A stretch of DNA of 38,332 nucleotides from an uncultured Mycoplasmatota bacterium (GTDB taxonomy: Bacteria; Bacillota_I; Bacilli_A; RF39; UBA660), in contig CANPPW010000014.1 of assembly GCA_947576095.1 (NCBI GenBank), positions 1 to 38,332 on the forward strand, read 5' to 3'. A program made the translations under genes and the position numbers. Below are positions 6,053-37,392 of this stretch, one piece after another (positions within the stretch are counted from its first letter, which is position 1; every line of letters starts with the position of its first letter). The notes beneath the pieces were generated by a model, which had not been told where the DNA came from, searched no databases, and was given only the letters and a program-made list of their open reading frames with translations.

Positions 6053-7042
6053 ATGCAGTTATCCATTATTATTCCTGTTTATAACGCAGAAGTCTATTTA
6101 AAAGCATGTCTTGATTCTATTGTGCAAGAAATGAATGAACAAACAGAAGTTTTGTTAATTGATGATGGTTCTAAAGATCATACGTCTCTTATATATAACA
6201 CTTATAAAGATAAAATTCACATTTTCCAAAATAAAAATCATGGTGTTTCTTATGCTCGGAATTTTGGGATGAAACATGCATCAGGAAAATATATTATGTT
6301 TGTGGATGCTGATGATGTATTGATAAAAGGATGGCAACAAAAAATAAATAATTTTCTTTCATCTTCAGCCGATATTCTATATTTTTCGAAATATAAAGTA
6401 TCATCTAATATTTCCCAAAATGATGTGATTCAATCTATAATTGGGTATCCTCAAAATAAGATCCTTACTCCCTTATCTGCAGTGTGGTCAAAACTTTTTA
6501 AAAGACAATTTCTCTTAAAAAACAATTTATCATTTTCTGAAAATATTATCAATGGAGAAGATATGTTATTTAATTTGAAGGCTATTTTATGTACTGATTC
6601 TTTTCGTTTTGTAGAGGCTTCTATTTATCAGTACCGTATTCACTTTCATTCAGCTACTCATGTTTTTGAAAAAAAAATATTTGATTCTAATATATTATTT
6701 TTAAAGCAATTTTATCGTATTTTAAAAGATGATCCATCTATTTTTCATGATTTTCAAAAGTATTATGATTGTTGTTTATTCAATAGTATTTATATATTTC
6801 TTTATCGAATTTCACGGATTGAGAAAAAACAAGAAAGAAAACAAATTTATCCCATTTTTGAAGAATCTATTTATGCCAATTTTTTAAAACGGTATCACAG
6901 TCAATATATTTATGGTATGTATAAAAATATGATTTTGTTTTTGATTAAACATAAATTATATAATCAGGCCATTTTTATTATGAGAATGAAAGAGAAAATA
7001 GGCATGCGACATCATAAAAAAGAAGTATTGGAGGAGATATAA
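6053..7042 (+). CDS. Family 2 glycosyltransferase
   Basis: 329-residue GT-A enzyme with LSIIIPVYNA (3-12), LIDDGSKDHT (35-44), NHGVSYARN (62-70) and FVDADDVL (83-90). It shares the exact block NHGVSYARN with its upstream neighbour, suggesting paralogy. The start lies two bases after the preceding stop, with the ribosome-binding site (GAAGGGAAGG) inside the upstream gene. It is the third GT2 and fourth glycosyltransferase in the operon, implying a repeat unit of about five sugars including the initiating one; that count is an inference. Confidence 0.9.
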   Translation: MQLSIIIPVYNAEVYLKACLDSIVQEMNEQTEVLLIDDGSKDHTSLIYNTYKDKIHIFQNKNHGVSYARNFGMKHASGKYIMFVDADDVLIKGWQQKINNFLSSSADILYFSKYKVSSNISQNDVIQSIIGYPQNKILTPLSAVWSKLFKRQFLLKNNLSFSENIINGEDMLFNLKAILCTDSFRFVEASIYQYRIHFHSATHVFEKKIFDSNILFLKQFYRILKDDPSIFHDFQKYYDCCLFNSIYIFLYRISRIEKKQERKQIYPIFEESIYANFLKRYHSQYIYGMYKNMILFLIKHKLYNQAIFIMRMKEKIGMRHHKKEVLEEI

Positions 7043-22065: not shown

Positions 22066-22428
22066 ATGAAAGAAAAAGGATTTACGATGGTAGAATTATT
22101 AGGTGTTATAACTCTTTTAGGATTACTTGCTATGATTCTGTATCCTACTATAAATCGTTATATTACCAATTCTAAAAATCAATTGTCTTCGGTACAGACA
22201 GATAATATTTTAAAGGCAGCGAAAACTTGGGGGGCCGATCATATTACCTCTTTACCTACAGAAGAAGGGGAAAGTTTGGAAGTGGATTTAAAAACGTTGC
22301 AGGATGAGGGATATATTGATTCTGATTTAAAGGATCCTGAAACGAAAAAAACTTTGAATGCGACTGCTATAAAAGTTAGAATTTCTTATCAGAATGGAAA
22401 TTTAAAATATAGAATGGTGGGCAAATAA
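22066..22428 (+). CDS. Type IV prepilin-like protein
   Basis: 120 residues. A short basic leader MKEKG is followed by FTMVELLGVITLLGLLAMIL, the class 3 prepilin signal: cleavage after Gly5, N-methylation of Phe6, and the conserved Glu at mature position 5. The helix continues into a small globular domain (about 45-120). It would be processed by a prepilin peptidase and assembled into a pseudopilus or competence-like fibre; none of those partner genes is in the window. Its neighbour one base downstream is a paralogue. Exact role (competence, adhesion, secretion) is unknown. Confidence 0.85.
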   Translation: MKEKGFTMVELLGVITLLGLLAMILYPTINRYITNSKNQLSSVQTDNILKAAKTWGADHITSLPTEEGESLEVDLKTLQDEGYIDSDLKDPETKKTLNATAIKVRISYQNGNLKYRMVGK

Positions 22429-30650: not shown

Positions 30651-31685
30651 ATGGAGACAATGACAATTTTTGATAAATGTTTTGTTTTTTTTGAATTTTT
30701 AATGAAAAATCCTACTATTATTTTCATTTTTTTTCTTATCTTTTTATTAGGTATCTTTTTATTAAATAAGAAAATTTCTCCAAAAATAAAAAACGTTTTT
30801 TTTGTAATTCTTTATTTCTCTATAATGATTATTTTATGGATTCGTTACCATAAATATTTTTTAGAGAGTGTGGATTCTGTTGTAACAATATTATTATCCA
30901 ATTTGTATTTTCCATCTCTAGGTCTTGTTTTTCTACTATTTATTATTGCTGTTTTGTTAGAATTGTATATTCTTTGTAGTAAAACATCTTCCAATATAGA
31001 AAAAAACATATATACCTTCTTTTTTAGTATTTATCAGTTTTTTTTCATAAGTTTATTTTGGTTGATAGAAAAATATCACATAGATTTATCTGATTCTTTG
31101 GCACTTTATGAAAATAAAAATATGATGTCCATTTTGAATCTTGAAATTTTAACTTTTATATTATGGATTTTGGTTTATATAGGTATTAAGTATTTTTATT
31201 TTTTAAAAAATAGAGTTGAAAAAAAGCACTCCATTTTGGAAATAGAAGATTTGAAACGTAAGTTAAAAAATGAAAAAATAGATGCTTTACAAAAAATAAA
31301 GAAAGAACTTCAAGAGAATAAAGAAAGAGAAATATCTTTATTTAAAGTAGCACTGGTTGAAGAAGTTAAAAGACAATTTCAAGGTATGAAGGATTGCATG
31401 AAAAAGCAAAAAGAAGAGGATCTTCTTCAAATAGAAAAAGAAATAGAAAGACAAAAAAACGAGCAATTGCTCCAAAGGGTAAAACAAATAGAACTTGCAC
31501 AACAAAGAGAATTTGCCATGTATAAGGAAAAACTTGAAAAAGAATTAAGAATAGAACTTCAAGTGGAAGCAGAAAAGAAAAAAATCTCCTCTGCTTTTAT
31601 ATCTCAAAATTTAGATGATATAGAAATATTGGAGGTAACACAGCCACCTTCTATAGAAATTCTTGATTTAGGAGATGATGTGTGA
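30651..31685 (+). CDS. Polytopic membrane protein with long coiled-coil tail
   Basis: 344 residues, not recognised as a known family. Five or so hydrophobic segments fill residues 18-188. A charged, heptad-like segment rich in Glu, Lys, Gln and Leu (about 195-310) would form a long cytoplasmic coiled coil, and the tail is acidic (DDIEILEVTQPPSIEILDLG). The gene overlaps the sortase gene start (TGATG), so the two are translationally coupled, and a good promoter precedes it. The pairing suggests a role in positioning or controlling surface-protein anchoring, but that is an inference from gene order only. Confidence 0.8.
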   Translation: METMTIFDKCFVFFEFLMKNPTIIFIFFLIFLLGIFLLNKKISPKIKNVFFVILYFSIMIILWIRYHKYFLESVDSVVTILLSNLYFPSLGLVFLLFIIAVLLELYILCSKTSSNIEKNIYTFFFSIYQFFFISLFWLIEKYHIDLSDSLALYENKNMMSILNLEILTFILWILVYIGIKYFYFLKNRVEKKHSILEIEDLKRKLKNEKIDALQKIKKELQENKEREISLFKVALVEEVKRQFQGMKDCMKKQKEEDLLQIEKEIERQKNEQLLQRVKQIELAQQREFAMYKEKLEKELRIELQVEAEKKKISSAFISQNLDDIEILEVTQPPSIEILDLGDDV

Positions 31686-32317
31686 TGAAAAAAGTAAAGT
31701 CTTATTATTGGTTTTTTCTTTCTTCTATTTTAATTGTGATAGGTATTTTTATCTGCTTATTCAATTATATATCACAAAAGAAGATTTTTATTTTTAAACT
31801 ATTTGAATCTGAAAAATTTTTACAAGAGATATCTATGCCACAGGTTGTAGAAGAAACCTCCGAAGAACATCCAGAAAAAAAAACAAAAACAAAAGAGAAA
31901 GAATCCTATATAGCAGTTTTAGAAATTCCTAAAATTGGTTTGAAACAAGGGTTTTATGCATTAAATTCTCCATTAAATACTGTGGATTATAATATTACGA
32001 TCATTAGTCCTTCTAATTTTCCGAATGTAAATGGTGGGAATTTAATTTTAGCGTCTCATTCTGGGAATAGTCCTATTGCATATTTTCGAAATTTATATAA
32101 AACCGAAAATGGCAATCTTGCATTTGTTTATTATAATAAAATGAAATATACATATAAAATGGTAAATCGTTATGATGTTCCCAAAGTAGGGTATGTTGAT
32201 ATTCATAGAGATAAGAGTAAAACAACACTGACTTTGATTACTTGTACCCACAATGATTCTAATAGCCAAACTATCATTATAGCCGAACTTTTAAAAACAG
32301 AACCATATTCTGTGTAA
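31685..32317 (+). CDS. Sortase-family transpeptidase, atypical active site
   Basis: 210 residues: N-terminal membrane anchor (about 8-29), an acidic/Lys-rich stalk (40-73), then a sortase beta-barrel starting YIAVLEIPKIGL (75-86). The catalytic His is in LASHSGN (H125) and the Cys in TLITCTHND (C187). The Arg usually found a few residues later (R197 in S. aureus SrtA) is replaced by Gln195 in SQTIIIA, as judged by eye. It would attach surface proteins to peptidoglycan or to each other. The start at ATG 31685 overlaps the upstream stop; GTG 31682 is an alternative. The likely substrate is the next gene, whose motif is VPKTD. Confidence 0.9.
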   Translation: MKKVKSYYWFFLSSILIVIGIFICLFNYISQKKIFIFKLFESEKFLQEISMPQVVEETSEEHPEKKTKTKEKESYIAVLEIPKIGLKQGFYALNSPLNTVDYNITIISPSNFPNVNGGNLILASHSGNSPIAYFRNLYKTENGNLAFVYYNKMKYTYKMVNRYDVPKVGYVDIHRDKSKTTLTLITCTHNDSNSQTIIIAELLKTEPYSV

Positions 32318-32332
32318 AAAATTCGACATCAA

Positions 32333-32389
32333 TTGACATTTTTTTGAAAAAGTATTGTACTTTCATCAATAATGTGTTATTTTTATAAT
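32333..32389 (+). promoter_or_regulatory. Promoter region of the surface protein gene
   Basis: Two options: TTGACA (32333-32338) with TGTACT 17 bases later (32356-32361), or the consensus TATAAT at 32384-32389 that lacks a good -35. The second would start transcription next to GGGAGTGA, as at several other genes here. Confidence 0.5.
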
Positions 32390-32405
32390 AGATGGGAGTG
32401 ACATT

Positions 32406-34304
32406 ATGAAACAAATAAAAATGATAACTTTATTTTTATGTTTATTTATATTAGGTGTAGTAAATGTAAGTGCGGAATCGTTCACTTTACAGTTAGCTAG
32501 TCCAGACCATAAAAGTAATATTTATTTTAAAAGGGATGGAGTAAATATGCCATATCAAGCAACACTTACACAGATGCATAATAGTAGTAGGTTTTACTAT
32601 ACTTACTGTATGGATCATGGAAGAAATATTTCAGAAGGAGCTAGTTATACAAGACATACTTTGCGTTCTATGAAAGATTCCATTTATTCAAATAGGAGCA
32701 ATATGGCAAAGAATGAAAATAAAGTCATTGCAGTTATGAATAATATATTTCCTTATATTACTTTAGCTGAGATGAATAAAAGAGTTAATGCACATTATGG
32801 ATATAGTACAGGAAATAGTAAATATATCAATCTTACAGAGAGAAAAGCAATTGCGGCAGCACAAGCCAGACTTTGGCAACTAAGTGGTGTTACAGGTAAT
32901 TATACTGTTGATATGAGCCGTTCAAAATCAATAACAGAAAAAGATGCAACAGATATTGAAAAAACGATAGATTGGCTTAAAACATTAAAAGATTTTGAAT
33001 TGGATGAACCTCGCATTTCGATTGTATCTAGTTCTTATAAATATGATAGTAGTAAAGCAAAATATGTTGCTACAGTGAACTATAAGGTTACAGTAAAACA
33101 AACAGATGGGGCTAAAGTAACACATAAAATTTCAAATAATGCAAATAGTCAGGTTGATACATATAATAGATCTAGTGGTAATTATACATATAAAGCAGAA
33201 TTTGATTCAGCTGTAGATGATGTAACTATTACAATTAAAGTTGCTAATAAAATGAGTAATTTTAGAGAAGTTAGAGTTTATGAAAATAATACTTGGCAGG
33301 ATCTAATTGGTTCTACTTCTACTGAGGAAGGAGATAGTGCAAGCACATTTGTACGTTTGACAGGCAACAATACAGCAACATATCGTGTGTATAAAAAAGA
33401 TACTGCAGGAAGGATTGTACAAGGTGTTAAATTTCGTTTGGCAGGATATGGGAAAAACTTAGTTTGTACTGTCGATCATACTGGTTTTTGTGATTTTCCA
33501 AGTCTAGAGCCTGGTACTTATACATTAACAGAGGAAAGTGTGCCTCAAGGGTATATTAAACTCATCAGTACAAAATCAGTTGTAATAAAAGATTCTGATG
33601 TGGGGCATTTAGTAGAAGATAATGTAGTGAATGATGTTACGAAGGTTCAAATATCAAAACAAGATATTACAACAGGAAAAGAACTTCCAGGAGCTCAATT
33701 ACAAATTAAAGATAGTAGTGGCAATATTTTATATAGTTGGACTTCTACCAATACACCTTATTATATAGATAGGTTGCCTTTTGGTAAGTATACATTGGTT
33801 GAGACAATTGCTCCAAAAGGATATAAAAAATTAAAAACTGAAACTACTTTTGAAATAACTAATGGAAATCTAGTAAAAATTATTGTTTCCAATGCACCTA
33901 CTAAAATTAAAATTTCGAAGAAGGATTTAACAACAGGAAAAGAACTTCCAGGAGCACATTTACAAATTAAAAATAGTGCTGGGGATATTGTAGCTGAGTG
34001 GGTTTCGACAAGTGAACCTCACTATATTGAAGGTCTTCCACTAGGAAAATATACTTTAACTGAAACAATTGCCCCTGATGGATATAAAAAATCAGAGAAA
34101 GAATATCCTTTTGAAATTACCAATGATAATGAAGTAGATATTACAGTATATAATGAATATATTGTTGTAGATACTAAGGAAGAAGAAATCAAAGTTCCTA
34201 AAACGGATTCTTATGCTAAAAATATCATTTATATTGTTGGTGGTGCGATTATGGTAGCGGGTACTTTAATGGGCGTTCATGCCTTAAAGAGTAAAAAAGC
34301 ATAG
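32406..34304 (+). CDS. Cell-wall-anchored surface protein with thioester-like and SpaA/Cna-B domains
   Basis: 632 residues. A signal peptide (about 1-23, ending VSA) is followed by a domain containing YYTYCMDHG (Cys68) and AAQARLWQ (Gln153), the paired motifs of TQXA-type thioester adhesin domains. Next come an all-beta spacer (about 200-330) and three SpaA/Cna-B-like domains (about 335-413, 414-500 and 501-586). Each has the Lys-bearing first strand (such as VQISKQD), TLTE/TLVE with the catalytic Glu, and ETIAPxGY where expected. The sorting signal is VPKTD (597-601), a hydrophobic span and the tail KSKKA. It lies just downstream of the sortase, which is the probable anchoring enzyme. It probably acts as an adhesin or pilus-like subunit. 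Confidence 0.88.
   Translation: MKQIKMITLFLCLFILGVVNVSAESFTLQLASPDHKSNIYFKRDGVNMPYQATLTQMHNSSRFYYTYCMDHGRNISEGASYTRHTLRSMKDSIYSNRSNMAKNENKVIAVMNNIFPYITLAEMNKRVNAHYGYSTGNSKYINLTERKAIAAAQARLWQLSGVTGNYTVDMSRSKSITEKDATDIEKTIDWLKTLKDFELDEPRISIVSSSYKYDSSKAKYVATVNYKVTVKQTDGAKVTHKISNNANSQVDTYNRSSGNYTYKAEFDSAVDDVTITIKVANKMSNFREVRVYENNTWQDLIGSTSTEEGDSASTFVRLTGNNTATYRVYKKDTAGRIVQGVKFRLAGYGKNLVCTVDHTGFCDFPSLEPGTYTLTEESVPQGYIKLISTKSVVIKDSDVGHLVEDNVVNDVTKVQISKQDITTGKELPGAQLQIKDSSGNILYSWTSTNTPYYIDRLPFGKYTLVETIAPKGYKKLKTETTFEITNGNLVKIIVSNAPTKIKISKKDLTTGKELPGAHLQIKNSAGDIVAEWVSTSEPHYIEGLPLGKYTLTETIAPDGYKKSEKEYPFEITNDNEVDITVYNEYIVVDTKEEEIKVPKTDSYAKNIIYIVGGAIMVAGTLMGVHALKSKKA
33642..34163 (+). repeat. In-frame tandem duplication of a SpaA domain
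   Basis: Two units 261 bases (87 codons) apart. The longest perfect block begins ACAACAGG and runs 26 bases, at 33669 and 33930, encoding TGKELPGA in both. The rest has diverged, so the copy is not recent. Confidence 0.75.
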
Positions 34305-34462: not shown

Positions 34463-35089
34463 TTAATTCATTTCATGTAAAGATAAAATTTTTTGATTGG
34501 CTTTGGCTACATTCCGTTGGAATTCGAAACGTGCATGCTCAAATTTGCTTTCGTCATTTTTTCGCATAACTTTCTTTTGTGTTTCTATAAATTCAAAATG
34601 TTTTAAATATTCTTTTACAATTTCTAGATATTCTAGATAATCAGAGTGGTATAAATGATCATTACAATATAAAAACTCATAAAGATGATAAAAACAAAAG
34701 TTATCAAAGAAATTACACTCCATGGAATAATATATGCCGAACATTGCTACGTGTTTCTGACGATAATAGGTCGCTAATAGTTTTTTTATAATGAGAGGTT
34801 CATTATGATAAATTCTAAAGGTGCCAGGTATTATATTATCTTTAAAAAGGCCAAGACGATTACGCCGAGATTCATTATGATAGGATCTCTGTGTAATTTG
34901 TTCCATCCTAAGACCACGTTGTTTTGCACAAAAGTATTCTATGTCATTGTCCTTCACATCTTCAGTAGTAGCCCCTAGTTGTAATGATGTTTCATTAATC
35001 CACTTCGTGAATTTGATTGGATCATATATAACCTGATTTACATATAACTCTTCATCAGATTTGTATAAATAAATTTCTTCTTTTTCCAT
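34463..35089 (-). CDS. Hypothetical protein, minus strand
   Basis: 208 residues, not recognised. No signal peptide or membrane helix. It starts MEKEEIYLYKSDEELYVNQV, is rich in Tyr, His, Phe and Glu, and has an aromatic helical middle (YSMECNFFDNFCFYHLYEFL). The start at 35089 is chosen because AAAGGAGAT precedes it and TATAAT (35114-35109) lies 19 bases further up; a longer in-frame start at 35149 lies upstream of that promoter. It is the only minus-strand intact gene in the window and converges on the surface protein gene, with a terminator for each. Confidence 0.7.
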   Translation of the reverse strand: MEKEEIYLYKSDEELYVNQVIYDPIKFTKWINETSLQLGATTEDVKDNDIEYFCAKQRGLRMEQITQRSYHNESRRNRLGLFKDNIIPGTFRIYHNEPLIIKKLLATYYRQKHVAMFGIYYSMECNFFDNFCFYHLYEFLYCNDHLYHSDYLEYLEIVKEYLKHFEFIETQKKVMRKNDESKFEHARFEFQRNVAKANQKILSLHEMN

Positions 35090-35108
35090 ACGTTTATCTC
35101 CTTTTTTT

Positions 35109-35114
35109 ATTATA
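35109..35114 (-). promoter_or_regulatory. -10 box of the minus-strand gene
   Basis: TATAAT on the minus strand, 19 bases before the start codon, with AAAGGAG between. The -35 is unclear. Confidence 0.4.
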
Positions 35115-35238
35115 ATAGCACCATGATATGTAAAATGCAACGTTTTCATAGAAAATGTGATTTACTGTTATATTTTTATTATAGGAGATTAAATGTAGAT
35201 TGATGAACTGCTATTCATTTAAAATAATTATAAGTATC

Positions 35239-35343: not shown

Positions 35344-37392
35344 ATGAAAAAAAATACTGTGATAAAATCTACTGCTGTAGATTCAAATTCAATTGGTAAA
35401 ATTTTAGTTACTATTAACAATACCGCTTATATAAAATCTAAAACAGGTAAAACAGGATTATTCAATATTCAAACAAACCAGCTCATAGGAGAAATGGACG
35501 ATTTTTATTTAATGTATAATAAAGGGGAACAAATGTATTATCTACTGAAAAATTATAATTGCGATGATAAACCAACATTTCTTAGTGTTTATGATGCTTT
35601 GCATGAAAATATGATTTTTGAAAATTTTGAAGTTGTTCGATCTTATTATGATTTTTCTATTGCTGTACTTAGATCTCCAATAGATGGAAAAATACACTTT
35701 TTTGATGAACAGGCTTACCTAAATTCAGCTAGCGTATTTGATATGGCTTTAGATGATGCTGAAAAACTGGTTGGAGACGGTTTTAAAAATGATTATTTTG
35801 TATTTACTATGAATGGAAAAAAGGGTTTATATCGTAGATATGATTTTGGAAGGTTGCAATGTTTAGAACTTCCTATTGAGATGGATAGTATTGAAGTAAT
35901 GTCTAATGTAAATCATCAAATAACTTGGGCTATTGTGTATACAAAGGGTGAAGAGCAAAACTTCTTATATTTTATAGATGGTAAAAAAAGTGATGCATTT
36001 GATAGAATCATTTTAGATCCTGAAAAAATTAATATTTGTTATTGTATAAAGGATAAAACAATTTCTGTCTATGATATATATAGACAAATTCTATTATTAA
36101 AAGAGGAATGTGAAGAGATTAAATATCTGTTATGTGGAGGAATTGAAAAAGATGATATTAGTATTAAGTTTCAAAGGCTAGAGTATTTCTTTTCTATTAA
36201 ACAAAATGGAAAAGTAGGACTTAGGAAAATTGAATGGAATTATCAGGAGAAATCTGTAAAACAGACAAAGTTACTAGAATCTTTCTATGATAATATTATT
36301 GAGTATCAAAAGAATGATACAGGTGTACCTGAGTTTTATTTAGAAAAAAACAAAAAAATAGGTATATTTGTAGCATATTTTACCAACAAGTTAATTGAAC
36401 CGATATATGACCATATACAGAATTTGGGTAATCAGTACTATGCTTTATATCAAGGGGAAGTTTGTGATATTGTCAAAATACGATATTCATTTCGTAAGAA
36501 AGTTACTGAATTTAAGGTAGTTATTCAAAAATGCTCAATTGTAGAAATCACACCTTATGAAATTATTTATCAAAAAGAAAATCAATTTGGAATGTTACTA
36601 CCATATTGCAAAGCTGATGGCACTGTTGTGCCAGCTGAGTATGATGATATAACTTCTATGAAAAATTTTTCTGAACCATATTCTTATTATATGGTAGAAA
36701 AGGATGGGAAAAAAGGACTTATGTATTTGGGAGATAGCGTTTTAGATGCTGAATATGATACTATACATATAGGTCCCAGATTTACCCCAGGATTTGATTG
36801 GTTTGATCCTGACGATCCTTGCAGGTTTATTCCTGGCGTTGAAATCACTTATTTTGCTGTAAAAAAGGAAAAATATGCATTAGCTCAAGGAAAAAGTGTG
36901 CGACGTAATAACTATAGTGGGCAATGTGATATAGCCTATAAAGCTCAATTTATAAGTCCATATATTTATGATGAAATAAAAATTTTTAAAGAAATAATTG
37001 TTTTTAAAGACCAAAAACAAACATATATTTATGATCATCAACAAAAATTATTAAAAAACTTTCCAGCTGCTGCTTCTATTAGCGAGGTTGCATATTCTTC
37101 TGGAAGAAATTGCATAGATAAATCTTATTGCTATTATATAGATGGTGATTATTATTGTTATAAGTTTGGAAGACTTATGGCAGAAGAAGTTTATGTAACC
37201 ACTTATGAAACAGAAAAAGATTGTTTTGAAGTAAAAACACCTTATCAAGTGGAGCATGATTTATTTTGTGATATGATTGATGCAAAGGGAGATGCTGCAG
37301 CGGAACAATGTTTAACAGATATGATAGATCATGAAGATATGAAAACAAAATATCCAACCTTAGTACTAACAAGAAGAACTAAAAACCAATAA
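35344..37392 (+). CDS. WG-repeat-containing protein
   Basis: 682 residues without a signal peptide. Several degenerate repeats have the WG pattern: a basic turn followed by Gly and a strand, then a DxI or YDxI element. Examples are NGKKGLYRRYD, QNGKVGLRKIEW, KNKKIGIFVAYF with EPIYDHI, and DGKKGLMYLG with AEYDTI. Such proteins are all-beta and bind unknown partners; no enzyme motif is visible. A C-terminal stretch of about 50 residues looks helical. It has its own promoter. The IS3 element begins about 30 bases after its stop, so the original downstream context is lost. Confidence 0.8.
   Translation: MKKNTVIKSTAVDSNSIGKILVTINNTAYIKSKTGKTGLFNIQTNQLIGEMDDFYLMYNKGEQMYYLLKNYNCDDKPTFLSVYDALHENMIFENFEVVRSYYDFSIAVLRSPIDGKIHFFDEQAYLNSASVFDMALDDAEKLVGDGFKNDYFVFTMNGKKGLYRRYDFGRLQCLELPIEMDSIEVMSNVNHQITWAIVYTKGEEQNFLYFIDGKKSDAFDRIILDPEKINICYCIKDKTISVYDIYRQILLLKEECEEIKYLLCGGIEKDDISIKFQRLEYFFSIKQNGKVGLRKIEWNYQEKSVKQTKLLESFYDNIIEYQKNDTGVPEFYLEKNKKIGIFVAYFTNKLIEPIYDHIQNLGNQYYALYQGEVCDIVKIRYSFRKKVTEFKVVIQKCSIVEITPYEIIYQKENQFGMLLPYCKADGTVVPAEYDDITSMKNFSEPYSYYMVEKDGKKGLMYLGDSVLDAEYDTIHIGPRFTPGFDWFDPDDPCRFIPGVEITYFAVKKEKYALAQGKSVRRNNYSGQCDIAYKAQFISPYIYDEIKIFKEIIVFKDQKQTYIYDHQQKLLKNFPAAASISEVAYSSGRNCIDKSYCYYIDGDYYCYKFGRLMAEEVYVTTYETEKDCFEVKTPYQVEHDLFCDMIDAKGDAAAEQCLTDMIDHEDMKTKYPTLVLTRRTKNQ

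Follow-up and report, generated by a model that had tools for sequence, protein, structure and literature searches.

Locus organization

The window, i.e. the whole 38,332-nt stretch of DNA analysed here, from an uncultured Mycoplasmatota bacterium, carries neighbouring genes for a membrane protein (P0003), a sortase (P0001) and a secreted adhesin (Table 1), the stop codon of the P0003 gene overlapping the start codon of the sortase gene. P0001 is matched by the sortase models PF04203 of Pfam (52 bits, cut-off 26.6) and TIGR01076 (42.9 bits, cut-off 39.35), its AlphaFold model (pLDDT 91.8) has the sortase β-barrel fold, and a Foldseek search against the PDB returned sortases of classes A, C, D, E and F, with matches to SrtA/C/D/E at probability 1.00. 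As regards the features of the sortase superfamily (C60), P0001 contains the Cys of the TLxTC motif (C187) and the catalytic His (H125), but Gln instead of the catalytic Arg at the start of strand β8. Its fold, His and Cys make it a sortase, yet it lies outside all tested NCBIfam class models, scoring below every cut-off (class C, 49.5 vs. 160 bits; SrtD, 39.1 vs. 140; class E, 32.1 vs. 160; class D, 25.5 vs. 165); the class F model matches only 13 of 31 members (best E 1.5e-07). Two proteins beside these genes (35344-37392, 682 aa; 34463-35149, 228 aa) have no Pfam match, and a short protein encoded at 22066-22428 has a type IV prepilin-like N-terminus (KGFTMVELLGVI).

Table 1. Features of the locus and related Arg-less sortases (window positions unless a locus is named).
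Feature	Position	Strand	Remarks
Partner membrane protein P0003	30651..31685	+	344 aa; multi-pass (about 5 TM helices predicted), with a long coiled-coil tail after the helices
Sortase P0001	31685..32317	+	210 aa; one N-terminal TM helix; predicted His-Cys-Gln active site
Catalytic His125 codon	32057..32059	+	139/139 unique relatives
Arg175 codon	32207..32209	+	before β7; the one Arg shared by most members of the clade, 117/139
Thr186 codon	32240..32242	+	139/139; by its place before Cys the equivalent of the oxyanion-hole Thr207 of S. pyogenes SrtA
Catalytic Cys187 codon	32243..32245	+	139/139
Gln195 codon	32267..32269	+	catalytic-Arg column; Gln in 135/139
Substrate adhesin	32406..34304	+	632 aa, secreted; Pfam TED and SpaA (x3); C-terminal sorting signal
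VPKTD sorting motif	34194..34208	+	family consensus V-P-x-T-x
Arg-less LQTC class-B-like sortases	L006:1240-1935 (G000:C31)		own genome; further members L227, L229-L234, L237, L240, L247, L250

Gln at the position of the catalytic Arg

The initial annotation had assigned His125 and Cys187 to the active site and placed Gln195 where sortases usually have Arg. Reading of the ORF and location of the codons confirm all three residues, and the equivalence of Gln195 to the Arg is borne out in three ways. In an L-INS-i alignment of Gln-type and Arg-type sortases, in which one Gln-type row (L023) is off by one position, all 14 Arg-type rows have Arg in the column of Gln195; in profile alignments the Arg of the solved class D sortases 4d70 and 2kw8 pairs with Gln195; and in the AlphaFold model β7 ends at Cys187, with residue 195 being the second residue of β8. 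The Arg-type rows together with the class D pairing rule out an alignment slip as source of Gln195. Alignment and strand position suggest that the Gln195 side chain is directed into the active site.

Gln is strongly conserved among the unique relatives of P0001, the four exceptions having His, Tyr, Arg or a gap, and His125, Thr186 and Cys187 are each invariant (Table 1), which rules out a chance mutation or a pseudogene. The sequences L132 and L133 carry Arg on realignment; L132 was miscalled as Gln-type by the profile alignments because a Gln precedes the Arg. Its locus (L132:2163-3862) encodes two adjoining class C-like sortases, one of which has this Gln directly before Arg (NYQRYV). A literature search covering open-licence papers found no Arg-less sortases.

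The mechanism could be unchanged if another Arg, most likely R175 of the β6/β7 loop, swung into the active site. An Arg placed there by alignment, which the initial annotation had named as evidence against its own reading, was looked for across the 139 unique relatives, and no general one was found: no other Arg is invariant, and only R175 is frequent. Although most members have this residue, many short Gln-type sortases have K, D, P or a gap at its position (L119, L120, L123, L124, L125, L127, L129, L131), and the alignment places R175 12 residues N-terminal to Cys187, at the far side of the β6/β7 loop. As R175 is not universal, a compensating Arg is rejected as general answer, and we regard a contribution of this kind as unlikely.

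Distribution and phylogeny

Of 98 genomes, 42 contain relatives of P0001, and with one exception these belong to the window's own family. A profile search of the order, which we infer to be RF39, gave matches in 238 of 288 genomes, which represent 82 of 102 genera, the carriers including Candidatus Onthousia, Pelethosoma, Coprosoma and other gut MAGs, and this wide distribution argues against decay of the Gln-type sortases. Broader class and phylum samples from outside the order contained no Gln-type match, their single match (G473) being an Arg-type sortase.

In the tree, in which the placement of several long branches is weak, the Arg-bearing relatives branch at the base, whereas the Gln clade is derived, with a minimum of 5 state changes over 85 tips. 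This topology suggests that the catalytic Arg was replaced by Gln essentially once, in an order-wide clade. L134 has Arg although it is located, with weak placement, inside the Gln clade, and a few members (L117, L118, L025) have Tyr or His instead of Gln.

Substrates and sorting motif

The neighbour of the sortase does end in VPKTD, as initially annotated, and the complete signal, VPKTD-SYAKN-(hydrophobic)-ALKSKKA with its KSKKA tail, has the layout of LPXTG-type signals; the sorting signal of one relative passes PF00746. Sorting signals in the genome were counted by pattern and by family, and the count of VPKTD proposed in the initial annotation gave one occurrence, as DNA reading, in the whole genome. 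SpaA domains are present in 7 of 8 scanned neighbouring substrates of relatives and TED domains in 6, so that these proteins are predicted to be covalent (thioester) adhesins. Operon linkage is also seen in relatives: in 82 loci the gene order is substrate-sortase-partner, and the substrate ORF overlaps the sortase start (median overlap about 25 nt).

Across 109 substrates adjacent to sortases, P3 Pro and P1 Thr are present throughout, both being demanded by the search pattern. The Leu at P4 and Gly at P1' of LPXTG are not the rule: P4 is Val in 93 substrates, and P1' is Gly in only 45, the others having A (22), D (12), S (8), N, L, F or E (4 each), Y (2), K (2), P (1) or M (1). Arg-bearing relatives, including Arg-type relatives in the same genomes, likewise have signals with a P1' other than Gly (MPITS, MPDTY, VPDTY, LPNTE). 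Because P1' varies in both groups, VPKTD is an ordinary V-P-x-T-x member. The initial proposal that enzyme and substrate co-evolved therefore holds in part: gene overlap in relatives indicates that the sortase belongs with the neighbouring signal, whereas co-evolution of Asp at P1' with Gln195 is rejected. Val at P4 is the mark of the clade and may be matched to Gln195, but since Gln originated about once, such a match is inseparable from descent. Of the two consequences envisaged initially, a specificity differing from the standard one, V-P-x-T-x, is likely, and a differing mechanism is possible.

The unconstrained P1' would also be in line with cleavage of V-P-x-T-x that leads mainly to hydrolysis or to transfer to an unusual acceptor, i.e. 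the adhesin would be released or polymerised rather than anchored to the wall, and the predicted incompleteness of peptidoglycan synthesis in RF39 (PMC10868615) points the same way. Yet a wall is predicted in most RF39, with m-DAP peptidoglycan (PMC10868615), and polymerisation into a pilus is less likely because P0001 has neither the class C lid motif DP[WFY], which was not seen when residues 50-75 were read by eye, nor a C-terminal TM helix, the only TM helix found being N-terminal. We consider release or polymerisation distinctly unlikely.

The partner membrane protein

No Pfam family was found for P0003, but it is homologous to proteins adjoining other Gln-type sortases (E 1.7e-19, leave-one-out profile). 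A same-strand homologue lies beside the sortase in 102 of 137 loci with enough sequence, in 100 of them downstream and in 2, as in the window, upstream. P0003 represents a family undescribed until now that adjoins most of these Gln-type sortases. In the same genome, a second Gln-type sortase (L004:1195-1893, G000:C20) is followed by a partner membrane protein and adjoins cotJB/cotJC-like genes; no substrate gene is present within the sequence covered at this locus. The partner model (pLDDT 78.8, pTM 0.55) is too uncertain for a fold search, and our guess would be that the protein acts as scaffold or localisation factor.

The association is tight, the partner being found in 17 of 19 genomes with a long Gln-type sortase and in 0 of 36 without, and 22 of 23 partner genes adjoining a sortase, as would be expected if the partner supplied the missing charge or activated the sortase in trans. 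Nevertheless, short Gln-type sortases and the long L019, L020, L023 and L028 keep Gln with no partner nearby, and the only near-invariant residues of the partner are D75, F87, P88 and Y153, i.e. conserved charge is almost nil, which makes such an activation very improbable.

Other sortase loci

Class-B-like sortases of the same order that have an LQTC motif contain mostly Phe/Tyr, occasionally another residue, in the Arg column (Table 1; ambiguous in L228), whereas their LSTC relatives have Arg or Lys there. Provided that a tree confirms this, loss of the Arg would have occurred at least twice within the order. The LQTC sortase of the window's own genome (L006) adjoins a protein with an APKTG signal.

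Three further loci of this genome are of note. At L002:711-1890 (G000:C12) a sortase adjoins a secreted protein with the C-terminus LVQTGHS, in which Val takes the place of the Pro of the sorting motif. At L003:234-1875 (G000:C2) a class-D-like sortase overlaps a SpaA-type substrate with an MPITS signal. In L202 (G000:C18, around 6400-6640) the frame of a SpaA-repeat protein of about 1500 aa ends directly after LPRTGF before a membrane helix is reached, possibly owing to a frameshift or an assembly error.

Proposed mechanism

On balance we favour, as a reasonably probable reading of the sequence data, that P0001 is active as a transpeptidase, its oxyanion hole being built by Thr186 and its neutral Gln195 only holding the substrate backbone, and that the three genes form a module, consisting of partner membrane protein, sortase and adhesin, for anchoring of the latter. 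The adhesin would be exported by Sec and kept in the membrane by its C-terminal helix. His125 would then activate Cys187 for attack on the Thr carbonyl of V-P-K-T|D, with the hydroxyl of Thr186 and backbone amides stabilising the oxyanion. Through its carboxamide, Gln195 would take over the structural part of the work of Arg, i.e. hydrogen bonds to the P4/P3 carbonyls of the substrate, without providing a positive charge. Finally, a cell-wall amine would accept the acyl group from the enzyme, so that the thioester adhesin would end up covalently attached to the surface.

Studies on S. pyogenes SrtA are instructive here. Its Arg touches the P4/P3 carbonyls and is >6 Å away from the P1 carbonyl, and its oxyanion hole is formed by Thr207, the required Thr before Cys, and the backbone (PMC9520033). 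Exchange of the Arg for Ala inactivates the enzyme (PMC9520033), so a neutral replacement may not suffice. On the other hand, an engineered, evolved SrtA with Ser in place of Arg is, as cited in PMC9520033, still an efficient transpeptidase. The combination of invariant Thr186 and Gln195 fits a mechanism that does not need the charge of Arg.

That P0001 is without catalytic activity and its sortase fold serves only to bind or escort the adhesin, with anchoring by another of the six sortases of the genome, is highly unlikely: mutation of the lost residue usually proves fatal, but a dead enzyme would not need invariant His, Thr and Cys.

A functional transpeptidase with Thr186 in the oxyanion hole would have broader implications. 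The His-Cys-Arg triad is said to be present in all sortases, and more work is regarded as warranted on whether its Arg stabilises the oxyanion or positions the substrate (PMC9520033). A natural clade with Gln for Arg is an experiment already run by nature that could show the purpose of the Arg, and as this Arg-less clade has an invariant Thr before Cys, the role of Arg becomes directly testable by a one-residue swap. We give roughly even chances to the more far-reaching view that natural, order-wide His-Cys-Gln sortases employ Thr186 as true oxyanion residue and are paired with both V-P-x-T-x substrates, in which P1' is free, and a dedicated membrane partner, and that, since a separate class-B-like clade of the same order is also Arg-less (Phe/Tyr), Arg is dispensable and was lost at least twice. 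A free P1' would be useful in sortase-based protein ligation. Moreover, the Gln-type sortases are predicted to attach adhesins to the cell surface of gut bacteria belonging to an uncultured order, and the partner would add a new gene family with a link to adhesin anchoring in these little-known organisms.

Comparison with known sortases

The nearest basal relatives of the Gln clade are the Arg-bearing sortases L126 and L128 of the same order, which share the HSG motif after the catalytic His but have kept the Arg, and no VPxTx substrate was found beside them in the loci examined. Among solved chains, the best profile match of P0001 is to class D sortases (E 7e-19), e.g. SrtD from Clostridium perfringens (4d70) and 2kw8 from Bacillus anthracis, with which it has in common the fold, a solely N-terminal TM helix and a short β7/β8 loop; they differ in having Arg at the position of Gln195, and class D models give only 25-39 bits against cut-offs of 140-165. 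Class C (pilus) sortases provide the best-scoring NCBIfam class model for Gln-type sortases, and VPxTG-type motifs occur in pilins, e.g. VPDTG of RrgC (PMC5640630), whereas P0001 has no class C lid or C-terminal TM helix and has Gln for Arg. Finally, the engineered, LMVGG-specific S. aureus SrtA with Arg exchanged for Ser, as cited in PMC9520033, resembles the Gln-type sortases in working without the conserved Arg and with altered specificity, but is a laboratory product with many mutations, whereas here a natural clade combines Gln with V-P-x-T-x.
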